From positions 1 through 64,000 of the forward strand of contig CALIUY010000036.1 in assembly GCA_938048455.1 (NCBI GenBank): a stretch of DNA of 64,000 nt, in the 5' to 3' direction. This document shows, piece after piece, positions 11,184-52,911 of the stretch. The position numbers were made by a program, and so were the translations under genes. Within the stretch, counting starts at the first letter, position 1, and every line of letters begins with the position of its first letter. This DNA comes from an uncultured Desulfobacterales bacterium (GTDB lineage Bacteria; Desulfobacterota; Desulfobacteria; Desulfobacterales; SpSt-501). The notes under the pieces are model-generated. The model made no database searches, was not told the DNA's origin, and was given only the letters and a program-made list of their open reading frames with translations.

Positions 11184-12134
11184 TCAGTTCAGGAAGTATT
11201 TTTCAGGATTTACGGGTACTCCGTGGAGGGCGACCTCGTAGTGCACGTGCGGGCCGGTGCTGGTGCCGGAATTGCCGACGAGGGCGATCACGTCCCAGCG
11301 CTGGACGCGCTCGCCTTGCTGCTTGAGCAGGCGGCTGCAGTGGCCGTAAGTCGTGGTCAGGCCGTGGCCGTGGTCGATGACGATCGTTTTCCCGAGCAGG
11401 CCCTTGATCCCCGCAAAGGTGACCACACCGGAGGCGGTCGCGTGGATCGGGGTCCCTTCCCGGGCGGAGATGTCGATGCCGCGGTGAAATTCGCGCACGT
11501 TGGTGAAAGGGTTGATGCGGTGCTCGAAGCGCGAGGAGATGAAGTGCTCGGTGAAGGGGTCGATCGGCCGGATGGTGGGCGTGGCGGCGAGTACGGAGCG
11601 TTTTTGTTCGAGGTGGGCGACCACCGCCTGGAAGCCCGCTTCCTGGTTCGCCGCCGCGGCCGCCAACTGCCCGAGCTGGCTTTTCATCTCGCGCATCAAG
11701 CTCGATTTTCCTTCGCCGAGGGCGATCTTGGGGTCCATGGCCTGGGGCACCGCCCCGCCCACCCCGAAGAGCTGGCCCGGATCGGCGCGACGCTCGAGAT
11801 CGGCCAGAAGGCGGATTTTTTTCTCGAACTCGTGCAGGCCGAGCAGTCGGTCCTTTAAGCGGTTGATCTCGCCGGCAAAATCCCCGATCAAGGAGCGCTG
11901 CAGCTCGATTTCGCGCTCGCGGACGGAGAGCCGCTCCTGGAGCTCGCGTTCGCGGGCGCCGGCGAAGACGGCGCCGCGCTTGAGAGAGGCATAGTCCCAC
12001 GCCCCCCAGACGGCGAGACAGAAAAAGACGGCCGCGGCGGTGAGCATCGACCCCAGCAGGCGGCGGGAGACGCAGAACTGCCGCGCCGGGGCCCCGGAGT
12101 TCGTGAGAACGACCAAGGAGATTCTTCTGCGCAT
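11184..12134 (-). CDS. Membrane-anchored M23-family (LytM-type) peptidase
   Basis: A 316-residue protein with a cytoplasmic basic start, one membrane segment (about 28-46), a coiled-coil region (about 58-115) and a carboxy-terminal M23 domain (about 205-310). The zinc and catalytic motifs HRGID and HVHYE are present, so it should be an active periplasmic endopeptidase cutting peptidoglycan cross-links, or a divisome regulator. It is preceded by an AAGGAGG ribosome site, an unusually structured leader and a strong promoter. Confidence 0.9.
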   Translation of the reverse strand: MRRRISLVVLTNSGAPARQFCVSRRLLGSMLTAAAVFFCLAVWGAWDYASLKRGAVFAGARERELQERLSVREREIELQRSLIGDFAGEINRLKDRLLGLHEFEKKIRLLADLERRADPGQLFGVGGAVPQAMDPKIALGEGKSSLMREMKSQLGQLAAAAANQEAGFQAVVAHLEQKRSVLAATPTIRPIDPFTEHFISSRFEHRINPFTNVREFHRGIDISAREGTPIHATASGVVTFAGIKGLLGKTIVIDHGHGLTTTYGHCSRLLKQQGERVQRWDVIALVGNSGTSTGPHVHYEVALHGVPVNPEKYFLN

Positions 12135-12298
12135 GGTGCGTCGCCTCCTTCGGGTTTCCGTCGGCGAAAGAAGCCTTCCGCCGGCGGCCGCTCACGGCCG
12201 CGCCAGCACATGGAATCATCCCGGGGGATGACTCCGGGGAGGGCAACGGGCTTTCGCCCGCGTCCGGGGTCGCTCCCTGGACTCAAAACGCTGAAGAT
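12135..12298 (-). promoter_or_regulatory. Highly structured 5' leader of the M23 peptidase gene
   Basis: Between the predicted start of transcription and the ATG, the minus-strand RNA forms four consecutive hairpins with four-base loops. They are 12261-12246 (GAAA loop, 6 bp), 12235-12212 (CCCG loop, 10 bp with one G-U), 12201-12184 (TGAG loop, 7 bp) and 12183-12162 (GCTT loop, 9 bp with one G-U). The ribosome site AAGGAGG follows the last one. I recognise no known riboswitch family. It could be a riboswitch, a protein-binding leader or an mRNA stabiliser. Confidence 0.6.
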
Positions 12299-12304
12299 TT
12301 CCCG

Positions 12305-12334
12305 TCTATAGAAAGCCCGCCCCGGTCCTGTCAA
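12305..12334 (-). promoter_or_regulatory. Sigma-70 promoter of the M23 peptidase gene
   Basis: On the minus strand a perfect TTGACA (12334-12329), an 18-base spacer and TATAGA (12310-12305). It sits just downstream of the folD stop, separating the two transcription units, and would yield a leader of about 164 bases. Confidence 0.7.
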
Positions 12335-12358
12335 GGGGCGGGCCGGATGTACGGCGCT

Positions 12359-13267
12359 TCAGGCGAGGCCGAGTTTGAACTTGAGCGAGCGGAGCGTGTT
12401 TTGCATCAGCATGGTGATCGTCATCGGGCCGACCCCTCCGGGAACGGGGGTGATCCAGCCGGCGATCTCCTTGGCGGCCTCGAAATCGACGTCCCCCTTC
12501 AGGATGGGGACCTTCTGGCCGGTCTTCTCGCTCACCTTTTCGCCCACCCGGTTCACGCCGACGTCGATCACGCAGGCCCCCGGTTTGATCCACTCGGGCT
12601 TGACCAGGCCGGGGACGCCGGCGGCGACGATGAGGATGTCGGCGCGCTTGCAGTGGGAGGCCATGTCGCGCGTTCCGGTGTGGACGACGGTGACCGTCGC
12701 GTTCGCCCCGCGCGCCTTCTGCAGCATCATCATGGCGATCGGCTTGCCGACGATGTTCGAGCGCCCCACGACCACGACCTCGGCGCCGTCGGTCGGAACC
12801 CCGGCACGCACGATCAGCTCCTGGATGCCCGCCGGGGTGCAGGGGGGGAACCTGACCTCGGAGCCCCCGATCATCAGCCGGCCGACATTGACCGGATGGA
12901 AGCCGTCCACGTCTTTGTCCGGGTCGATGGCGTTCAAGACCTTCTTTTCGTTGATGTGCTTGGGCAGGGGAAGCTGGACGAGGATCCCGTGAATCGTGTC
13001 GTCGCGGTTGTAGCGGTCGATCAGCGCGAGCAGTTCCTGCTCGGAAATGCCGACCGGCTGGTTGTCCTGGATCTCCTTGAAACCGAGGCGATGCGCGGTC
13101 TTGATCTTGAGCGTCACGTAGGAGACCGAGGCGGGGTTTTCGCCCACCAGGATGGTGACGAGCCCCGGGACGACCCCGTGTTTGGCCTTGATCGCCTGGA
13201 CTTCGGCGGCGAGCTCCTCGAGGATCGTCTCGCGGATTTCGGTGCCCAGAATCAGCTTGGCGGTCAT
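12359..13267 (-). CDS. folD: Methylenetetrahydrofolate dehydrogenase/cyclohydrolase FolD
   Basis: A 302-residue bifunctional enzyme interconverting 5,10-methylene-THF, methenyl-THF and 10-formyl-THF. Visible signatures are YVTLKIKTA with the catalytic lysine, QLPLPKHIN, the dinucleotide-binding VVVGRSNIVGKP and the carboxy-terminal PVPGGVGPMT. Length is typical. It follows argC on the same strand after 73 bases. The methylene-THF made by the glycine cleavage system encoded at 30403-33608 would feed it. Confidence 0.96.
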   Translation of the reverse strand: MTAKLILGTEIRETILEELAAEVQAIKAKHGVVPGLVTILVGENPASVSYVTLKIKTAHRLGFKEIQDNQPVGISEQELLALIDRYNRDDTIHGILVQLPLPKHINEKKVLNAIDPDKDVDGFHPVNVGRLMIGGSEVRFPPCTPAGIQELIVRAGVPTDGAEVVVVGRSNIVGKPIAMMMLQKARGANATVTVVHTGTRDMASHCKRADILIVAAGVPGLVKPEWIKPGACVIDVGVNRVGEKVSEKTGQKVPILKGDVDFEAAKEIAGWITPVPGGVGPMTITMLMQNTLRSLKFKLGLA

Positions 13268-42365: not shown

Positions 42366-43144
42366 CGGCTCCTCCCGGGATGGAGGTTTCCGCGCTTGCG
42401 CGGGTGCGGGAAAAAAGGCGCTCCCTTGAGCACCAGGCGCAACGCCTGGAAATAGATGAGGGCGATCACCTTCCCCGTGAGCAAGGGATAGCGCCGGAGA
42501 ACCCGTCCTAAAGCGCGGCGATCGATCGGCCGCCGCTCGAGCGCCAGGGTCGCATCGAAGAGAAGCTCCCCTTTCTCGTAAAGGATCATGTGCACCCCCA
42601 GCCGATCGCCCGGCACCCGGAAACGCCAGTCGTAGCCGATGTCCATATCGATGAACGGGGAGACGTGGAAGGCCTTCGGAAACCTATGCCGCCGCCAGCC
42701 GGGGCTGGGGTGGAGGTTTGCGGCGCGATCGAGGACATAGGTGTGGACCTCGCCCCAGGGGGTGTTGTGGATCTCCACGACGATCGCCTCGAGGTCGAAG
42801 CCCTGCTCGTCCCAGCAGTAATAGAAGCTCGCCGGGTTGAAGACGTAGCCGAAATAGCGCGGGTGGCAAAGGAGGCAGACCGGACCCGTGGGCCGACGGC
42901 CGGTCTGCTCGGCGACCCGTCGGCGCACCGCCTCCTCCAGGGGAAGCCGCGGGTCGCCGAAGTGGTCCCGGCGTCGCAACCAGGCGGGAGCCGGCCGCCG
43001 GTGACTCCAGAGGGGATGGAGGGCGAAGACGGCGTCGAGCTCGGCCAAATCGAGGTAGGGCAGGATCAGCCGGTAGCGGAAGGCGTTTTCGACCGGACGG
43101 AAGCGCCGGTGGCGGACGGTTCCTTCGTAGAGGCGGCTTCTCAC
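42362..43144 (-). CDS. DUF1365-family protein
   Basis: A 260-residue protein with the family segments YEGTVRHRRFRPVENAFRY, NPASFYYCWDEQG and HVSPFIDMDIGYDWRF. DUF1365 has no proven reaction but is almost always encoded between an FAD amine-oxidase-like gene and a CFA synthase, as here. The GTG start at 43144 overlaps the preceding stop (GTGA) and is the only start fitting the family amino terminus. Confidence 0.92.
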   Translation of the reverse strand: MRSRLYEGTVRHRRFRPVENAFRYRLILPYLDLAELDAVFALHPLWSHRRPAPAWLRRRDHFGDPRLPLEEAVRRRVAEQTGRRPTGPVCLLCHPRYFGYVFNPASFYYCWDEQGFDLEAIVVEIHNTPWGEVHTYVLDRAANLHPSPGWRRHRFPKAFHVSPFIDMDIGYDWRFRVPGDRLGVHMILYEKGELLFDATLALERRPIDRRALGRVLRRYPLLTGKVIALIYFQALRLVLKGAPFFPHPRKRGNLHPGRSR

Positions 43145-51685: not shown

Positions 51686-52911
51686 CGCGGCGGTGCGCCT
51701 CCGGGCGCTGTCTTTCGTCCCCAGACGGCGTAGAGCGGGTCGGAAAACGGGGTCGTCCCCGCGTAGCGGTCGTCTGCGGGCCGGGGCAGGCCGCGCACGG
51801 AAAAGGTTTCCATCCGTTCATACTCCCCCGAATCACGGAAAACTTCAAGGACCAGACCCATACGTTCGAACTCGTGAAGCTCGGTCCAGAGGCGTACGGC
51901 CTTGGGGGGAAAGTAGCGGTTGGAGAACACCTGGACAAAGAGACCGCCCGGCCGCAGGATGCGGGCGACCTCGGCGAAGACCTCGCGCGGCCGCACGAGG
52001 TATTCGAAGGAGACGGTCGAGATGACGGCGTCGAAGGATCCGCCGGGGAAGGGCAGCGCGGGGGCGGCGTTCAAGTCGTGAACCAAACGGCGATCGGCCC
52101 GCGGGTTGGCGGCGAGCTCCTCCTCGTTCAGCCCGAGCACGCTGAGCTCGGCGAGGGACAGCTCCGGGGGCAGATGGGAGATCCAGCTTCCCATGAGGTC
52201 GAGCACCCGGTCGCCGGCAGAAAGCAGCCGGCCGTAGAGGCGCTGGACCTCGGCCAGGGCACGGGCGTCGAGATGGGCGACCAAGCGCGGCCGGCGATAG
52301 AAGAGGGTGTCCTCCCGTTCGTCCGGCCGCGCAAAGGCGCCTGCGGTGAAAAAATCGGTCGGCTGTCCCCCGGCACGCGCCTGCATGCCCGGACCGTCGA
52401 GCAGGCGCTCGGTCCAGTCGACGACGCTCCCGCCGCGCTCGCTGGATTTCCGCGCCAGGCCGCTTACCTTCGCTTCGAGTTCGAGGGGGATCCCGGCGAG
52501 CGGATGGTTCAAGTCGGCAAGCAGATCATCGCGCCCGACCTCGAGACAGCGGAAGGGGAGAAGATTCTCGGGGAAAACGCCGGGCAGGCCGCGGAGCAGG
52601 CCGCGGGGGTAGAAGCGGCCGCGGCGGGGTACGATCCGGCTTCCGTCGGCGAGCGTGCTCTGGAAATCGGCGGTGCCGAGGCGGTGAATCCGATCCTGCC
52701 GGCGCGGCGGGAGCAGCTCGCCGGGATCAAAAGTGCGCCGCAGGAGGCGCGGTTCCGGATCGGCGGCGAGCGTCTCCCGGATTCCCGGCGGGAGAAGATC
52801 GCGCCAGAAGTTGACGCGGGGGGCGAAAAGAGACTCGGTGTGCAGGATGCCGTCTTTTTGCCAGCGGAGGGTGAACTCGAAATCCGCCGTGTAACGGTCG
52901 AGAAAATCCAT
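51682..52911 (-). CDS. FKBP/SlyD-like domain fused to a SAM methyltransferase
   Basis: A 409-residue protein. Residues about 55-150 resemble an FKBP/SlyD-type module, seen in the segment LNHPLAGIPLELEAKV, close to the SlyD NHPLAG signature, although catalytic aromatic residues are not evident. Residues about 225-400 are a class I methyltransferase: VLDLMGSWISHLP, then FDAVISTVSFEYLVRP. The protein has no signal peptide. It heads a ten-gene operon after a 91-base divergent spacer. The substrate is unknown; a lipid or small-molecule target is only a guess from context. Confidence 0.75.
   Translation of the reverse strand: MDFLDRYTADFEFTLRWQKDGILHTESLFAPRVNFWRDLLPPGIRETLAADPEPRLLRRTFDPGELLPPRRQDRIHRLGTADFQSTLADGSRIVPRRGRFYPRGLLRGLPGVFPENLLPFRCLEVGRDDLLADLNHPLAGIPLELEAKVSGLARKSSERGGSVVDWTERLLDGPGMQARAGGQPTDFFTAGAFARPDEREDTLFYRRPRLVAHLDARALAEVQRLYGRLLSAGDRVLDLMGSWISHLPPELSLAELSVLGLNEEELAANPRADRRLVHDLNAAPALPFPGGSFDAVISTVSFEYLVRPREVFAEVARILRPGGLFVQVFSNRYFPPKAVRLWTELHEFERMGLVLEVFRDSGEYERMETFSVRGLPRPADDRYAGTTPFSDPLYAVWGRKTAPGGAPPR

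Follow-up and report, generated by a model that had tools for sequence, protein, structure and literature searches.

A structured leader before an M23 peptidase gene at a site where relatives carry a c-di-GMP-I riboswitch

What is the role of a leader that folds into a row of stable hairpins directly before the ribosome site of a putative peptidoglycan hydrolase gene, and is it a riboswitch? The question is raised by a stretch of 64,000 nucleotides, hereafter the window, from an uncultured Desulfobacterales bacterium (assembly GCA_938048455.1, contig CALIUY010000036.1, positions 1 to 64,000). The original prediction for this DNA, made from the letters alone, described a strong promoter followed by four adjacent hairpins with four-base loops in front of an M23 peptidase gene, and considered that a new riboswitch might be present. 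The hairpins are there, on the minus strand, which that prediction had left unstated. The gene order is folD, M23 and secA, the last lying downstream of M23 and being named from its translated product. The M23 gene opens with an ATG at 12134 on the minus strand, and the C-terminal domain of its 316-residue protein is PF01551 (Peptidase_M23; residues 216-310, E 5.6e-31); the protein also matches structures of M23 endopeptidases. The M23 protein was searched in 58 genomes, the own one (G000) included, and found in all 58. Six other genomes belong to the genus, and the nearest of them is G003, whose M23 protein is 84% identical. The features to which the text refers are the following:

12359-13267, minus strand: folD, upstream neighbour of the M23 gene, named by its translated product
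12315-12343, minus strand: 9-bp inverted repeat GCCCGCCCC/GGGGCGGGC with the -35 hexamer in its loop and TTTCT behind, read from the sequence
12329-12334, minus strand: -35 hexamer TTGACA, read from the sequence; kept in G003, G004, G005 and G001
12305-12310, minus strand: -10 hexamer TATAGA, with an 18-nt spacer from the -35, read from the sequence and by comparison with relatives
12135-12298, minus strand (5' to 3' from 12298 to 12135): predicted 164-nt leader, fold z -3.8, start site predicted
12262-12282, minus strand: hairpin 1, 5-nt loop, from the fold; not conserved in G003
12246-12261, minus strand: hairpin 2, GCGGGC-GAAA-GCCCGU, from the fold; not conserved in G003
12238-12244, minus strand: GCCCUCC, partner of the ribosome site predicted by the fold, unexceptional when compared with other genes
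12212-12235, minus strand: hairpin 3, 10 bp, loop CCCG; in G003 the left arm is invariant and the right arm is changed and still pairs
12184-12201, minus strand: hairpin 4, GCGGCCG-UGAG-CGGCCGC; invariant in G003
12162-12183, minus strand: hairpin 5, 9 bp, loop GCUU; in G003 the stem is kept and the loop replaced
12135-12237, minus strand: stretch of the leader shared with G003, identity 84% without gaps and 87% in BLAST
12176-12214, minus strand: 39-nt block around hairpin 4, identical in G003 by alignment
12144-12150, minus strand: ribosome site AAGGAGG, read from the sequence and the fold
11184-12134, minus strand: M23 peptidase gene, 316 aa, from the ORF, PF01551 and full-length orthologue alignments in relatives

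The promoter TTGACA-18-TATAGA of the original prediction is borne out, both hexamers and their distance being readable on the minus strand and the 18-nt spacing being identical in all five genus leaders compared (the row of G034 was left out, its -35 match not being the promoter before its aptamer); the start site itself is a predicted one. A consensus promoter scan of the region returned no promoter-like site because TATAGA lacks the T demanded at position 6, and the promoter was therefore assigned by reading the letters and from its conservation in relatives. The inverted repeat around the -35 hexamer may be the end of the folD transcript, that is, a putative terminator overlapping the M23 promoter. 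The T-rich tail of this G+C repeat extends into the -10 box, and a related palindrome is kept in G003, in which, by eye, one pair has changed from C-G to G-C and one is broken.

The leader is predicted to fold with a minimum free energy of -84.6 kcal/mol, a value equalled by none of 200 and none of 500 dinucleotide shuffles. Its four hairpins with 4-nt loops, adjacent as originally described, have stems of 6, 10, 7 and 9 bp, and a fifth hairpin, farther upstream, has a loop of 5 nt. Such a density is rare in the window: of 6384 spans of 164 nt on both strands, only nine contained at least four tetraloop hairpins with stems of at least 6 bp, at three places including the M23 leader, and the five spans containing at least three with stems of at least 7 bp all lie at the M23 leader. 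The tandem hairpins before the M23 gene are thereby confirmed as real. The two further clusters with at least four tetraloop hairpins (at least 6 bp) per 164 nt are found on the minus strand at 42537-42740 and 52237-52460.

No known RNA family accounts for this leader. A cmscan of the whole window against 4227 Rfam families at the gathering score returned two tRNAs only; with loose cut-offs, the leader matched CC3552 (E 0.13) and ncS037 (E 2.1), both far under gathering. The c-di-GMP-I riboswitch model (RF01051, GEMM) gave no match up to E 5 in 12050-12400, and its local version, run on the window with filters off, reached at best 1.6 bits, the gathering score being 35 bits. The c-di-GMP-II and c-di-AMP riboswitch families had no window match at curated score. 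The conserved core of c-di-GMP-I (GGCAA, the GAAAG loop and CGCAAA.CC), present in nine of nine aligned aptamers, is absent from the window leader, in which the terminator scans found no terminator either. The earlier statement that this leader lacks the conserved bases of the c-di-AMP and c-di-GMP classes is consequently upheld by the Rfam and local-model searches.

The picture is quite different in several relatives. An Rfam scan of 29 orthologue loci (L003-L031) and one distant Acidobacteria locus (L036), with L032-L035 left out as repeats of loci already taken, detected RF01051 upstream of the M23 orthologue at 62-80 bits in five of the 29 (G001, G004, G005, G013 and G034). Three of these, G001, G004 and G005, are among the six other genomes of the genus, and in them a c-di-GMP-I aptamer and then a terminator occupy the folD-M23 junction behind a TTGACA; G013 and G034 stand outside the genus and within the order. 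The expectation that a riboswitch would be found at such a site was thus correct for the orthologous leaders of relatives, which carry c-di-GMP-I. The five M23-linked aptamers form one subtype with the nearly fixed stem GTCACC-GAAAG-ATGGCG, a stem absent from the other GEMM copies of G000, G001, G004 and G005. A pattern of this subtype allowing up to two mismatches matched 17 of 291 genomes of the order, belonging to families f1, f8, f17, f29 and f56, and the reversed control pattern matched none of the same 291; a class-wide pattern search in 389 genomes, all of which turned out to belong to the same order, gave 16 genomes with a match and no added locus.

All 17 subtype loci (L077-L093, five families) have folD upstream and M23 downstream, and in all of them a TTGACA lies 51-73 nt ahead of the aptamer. 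A hairpin followed by a U tract stands behind the aptamer in 16, the seventeenth (L088) being detected by two other scans, and thus a terminator was seen in each of the 17 leaders by one or more of three scans; when no bulges were allowed, a stricter scan retained nine. The folD/c-di-GMP-I/M23 layout is conserved and shows the hallmarks of a transcriptional riboswitch. Moreover, the 5' strand of aptamer helix P1b (GTCACCGAAAG) is complementary to the left arm of the terminator (e.g., GCCTTTGGGTGA) in L077-L093, which suggests antitermination without ligand, and so an OFF switch. In 12 of the 17 leaders, the best pairing site of this strand is no more than 5 nt from where the post-aptamer stretch starts, but only six of the 17 beat 95% of shuffles. 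Runs of several close c-di-GMP-I aptamers also occur elsewhere in the order (G044:C102:7438-7794; G015:C109:690-1206; G023:C75 and C79).

How the window came to differ from these relatives can be approached through the history of the M23 protein. In a tree of 30 proteins, rooted at the midpoint and with rough bootstrap values, G000 and G003 are sister to the GEMM-bearing G004 and G005 (98/90), these four stand together beside G002, G006 and the GEMM-bearing G001, and the genus lies beside the GEMM-bearing G013 and G034 (86/94). The stem of G000 and G003 is long, with 0.39 changes per column, and the enzyme is therefore a fast-changing one in this pair. In G002 and G006 the gap between folD and M23 is short. 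The simplest history would be a single ancestral riboswitch, lost in G000 and G003 and also in G002 and G006; several independent gains instead of loss are, strictly speaking, still conceivable. An elimination of GEMM from some lineages is considered possible in PMC3766115. G000 and G003 each retain one GEMM elsewhere in the genome, so that the class has not been lost genome-wide in G000. The sole c-di-GMP-I found in G000 (L042, about 1501-1591) precedes an ORF that, by eye, starts like a secreted fibronectin-type repeat protein.

If the riboswitch is gone, is the sequence that stands in its place maintained? The leader was matched in G003 only, in two parts, namely 42 nt of the promoter at 88% and the 3' 103 nt at 87% (BLAST); G003 excepted, no match was found among 146 genomes of the order (E up to 1, with matches above 0.001 counted as chance) or seven of the family. 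The ungapped identity of the 3' part is 87/103 (84%) vs 108/156 (69%) at fourfold sites of the M23 gene (binomial 3e-4), and 200000 simulations run at the fourfold-site identity produced no identical run as long as the 39 nt observed. In gapped alignment, the M23 leader scores 0.91 vs 0.47-0.85 for the bases upstream of nine other starts in the synteny block, a comparison of 13 starts from which 20779, 21497 and 26290, with scores of 0.91, 0.81 and 0.94, were removed by hand since their upstream bases are coding. Since the 3' 103 nt is more conserved than both the fourfold sites and the other upstream regions, and contains the 39-nt run, selection probably acts on it. Hairpins 1 and 2 belong to the 5' half, for which there is no confident alignment with G003. 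Absence of conservation in close relatives had been named at the outset as what would speak against the idea, and here the answer is mixed, the promoter and the 3' part being kept in G003 but no more than one genome sharing the leader and its 5' half not being alignable with confidence. The conserved block was also considered as coding, given an ATG at its start and a second frame that stays open, and this was rejected on reading, as out of four codons compared by eye that differ in G003, three change the amino acid.

Whether it is the structure that is selected is harder to decide. Twenty-nine pairs lie at the same place in G000 and G003, of which three have changed on one side and none on both. 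The compensatory changes that had been proposed as a check on the stems are accordingly lacking in the two-sided sense. In favour of structure, hairpins 3 and 5 each have a right arm that is altered in G003 and still pairs; random mutants do equally well in only 0.2-3.4% and 0.06% of trials, respectively. The tetraloops are not the conserved feature, since two loops have grown in G003 from 4 to 5 and from 4 to 6 nt. When the 3' 115 nt of both genomes are folded separately, the same layout is obtained, and in both the closing helix takes in the ribosome site, paired upstream with GCCCUCC in G000 and with GCUUCC in G003. The full leader of G003 is less exceptional (z -1.3, with 46 of 500 shuffles as good; 3' part, z -2.0). 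Selection on the leader structure has a fair case that is not proven, and it is hard to prove because the leader is present in two genomes only. As an observation on its own, the 5' half of the G003 leader contains a hairpin of very high stability with a T run behind it (L003, 1302-1345), an element that the window does not have; it is possibly an attenuator, and some transcriptional control may therefore persist in G003.

These data bear on several readings of the leader. One of them is a new translational RNA switch, in which hairpins 3-5 would form a junction closed by GCCCUCC and the ribosome site and opened by a ligand, temperature or a protein, and which would have taken over the role of c-di-GMP-I. 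The common fold of the 3' 115 nt, the invariance of the linkers and of hairpin 4 in G003, and the persistence of pairing in hairpins 3 and 5 speak for such a switch, but the small number of genomes, the absence of two-sided covariation and the modest z of the 3' part of G003 all count against it. Occlusion of the ribosome site, which might be taken as proof of regulation, was dropped as such, its mean unpaired probability of 0.18 (12135-12249 plus 40 coding bases) being within the range of 0.15-0.78 at 16 other positions of the window, one of which (11032) is no start codon and is to be ignored. Furthermore, when the coding start is included in the fold, the predicted pairing of the ribosome site is in part with the first codons instead. 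On balance this switch is unlikely, and a true exchange of riboswitch for riboswitch, with the c-di-GMP-I transcriptional switch giving way behind the same promoter to an unrelated translational one formed by hairpins 3-5 together with the ribosome site, is quite improbable. The possible new riboswitch of the original prediction is in this sense not sustained, the leader being shared with a single other genome, in its promoter and 3' 103 nt, without retention of four-base loops or two-sided changes.

It is likewise doubtful that the leader arose by decay of a c-di-GMP-I riboswitch, with hairpins 4 and 5 as the surviving expression platform. When the 3' leader of G000 is aligned locally with the stretches behind the aptamers of G005 and G004, only 6 and 10 of 1000 shuffles score better, but for the G003 leader the same test gives 126 and 215 of 1000, and the best aptamer remnants obtained with the local model and filters off are the 1.6 bits mentioned above and, in G003, a wrong-strand match of 7.2 bits. 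On these tests, together with Rfam at loose cut-offs, the aptamer part of this candidate was rejected as unsupported and its platform part judged mixed. Instead, the inverted repeats might work at the DNA level; hairpin 4, for instance, could be the operator of a dimeric regulator, being a perfect 7-bp inverted repeat within the invariant block. The predicted start site, however, is about 100 bp upstream of it, a DNA search of the own genome returns its own site with no second copy at E 0.01, and the weak matches in relatives fall inside ORFs at six of six loci examined. We hold an operator to be very improbable, and hairpin 4 as a dispersed repeat was rejected on the genome search and these weak matches. 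Finally, chance folding of G+C-rich intergenic DNA devoid of function would be in keeping with the high G+C, with the hairpin clusters at two other places of the window and with the unconserved 5' half. The z of -3.8 and the conservation of the 3' part above fourfold sites and nine other upstream regions speak against it, and we regard it as rather improbable.

The explanation that we consider probable is that a lineage-specific structured 5' UTR, static in its action, has replaced an ancestral c-di-GMP-I riboswitch. According to this proposal, an ancestor of the genus and of several related families would have carried a c-di-GMP-I aptamer and an intrinsic terminator between folD and M23, and the G000/G003 lineage, having inherited the site vertically, would have retained the promoter and lost both elements. 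The current leader would be a G+C-rich 5' UTR particular to this lineage, in which the 3' 103 nt, comprising hairpins 3-5, the linkers and the ribosome site, is selected, most likely to fix the structure of the start region that sets translation and mRNA stability, and the 5' half would be free to drift. M23 expression in the G000 lineage would then be independent of c-di-GMP as far as the leader is concerned. A static leader is preferred to a switch because similar occlusion is common in the G000 genome and the ribosome site also pairs with the first codons.

With respect to its significance, the leader itself is a modest object, a structured 5' UTR common to two genomes, and of greater value is the comparison with its relatives. 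There, c-di-GMP-I is linked to one M23 peptidoglycan hydrolase in five families of the order, always in the same synteny, and sister species with and without the switch offer a natural setting in which to study how bacteria respond to losing a second-messenger riboswitch. In the literature, the function of most genes of the GEMM regulon is given as unknown (PMC3766115), and a putative peptidoglycan hydrolase of Erwinia amylovora is placed under c-di-GMP control (PMC7705223). The word "peptidase" is absent from PMC8835794, PMC3766115 and PMC11124144, as is "M23" from the two searched for that word. Among the open-access full texts covered by the search, none was recognised that links c-di-GMP riboswitches with M23 peptidases or peptidoglycan hydrolases.

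Three known systems place the window leader in context. The closest by position is the c-di-GMP-I riboswitch RF01051, which occupies the orthologous site in G001, G004, G005, G013, G034 and 12 more genomes that carry its signature, whereas the window leader has neither its aptamer core nor its terminator. By target, the nearest is the c-di-AMP riboswitch (ydaO-yuaA, RF00379), which is known ahead of cell-wall hydrolase genes; the general kind of gene is the same, but the window leader is unmatched by this family at gathering. The third is the general class of static structured 5' UTRs and leaders that sequester the ribosome site; in the window leader, too, hairpins of high stability precede the start codon, and the ribosome site has a predicted pairing partner upstream.
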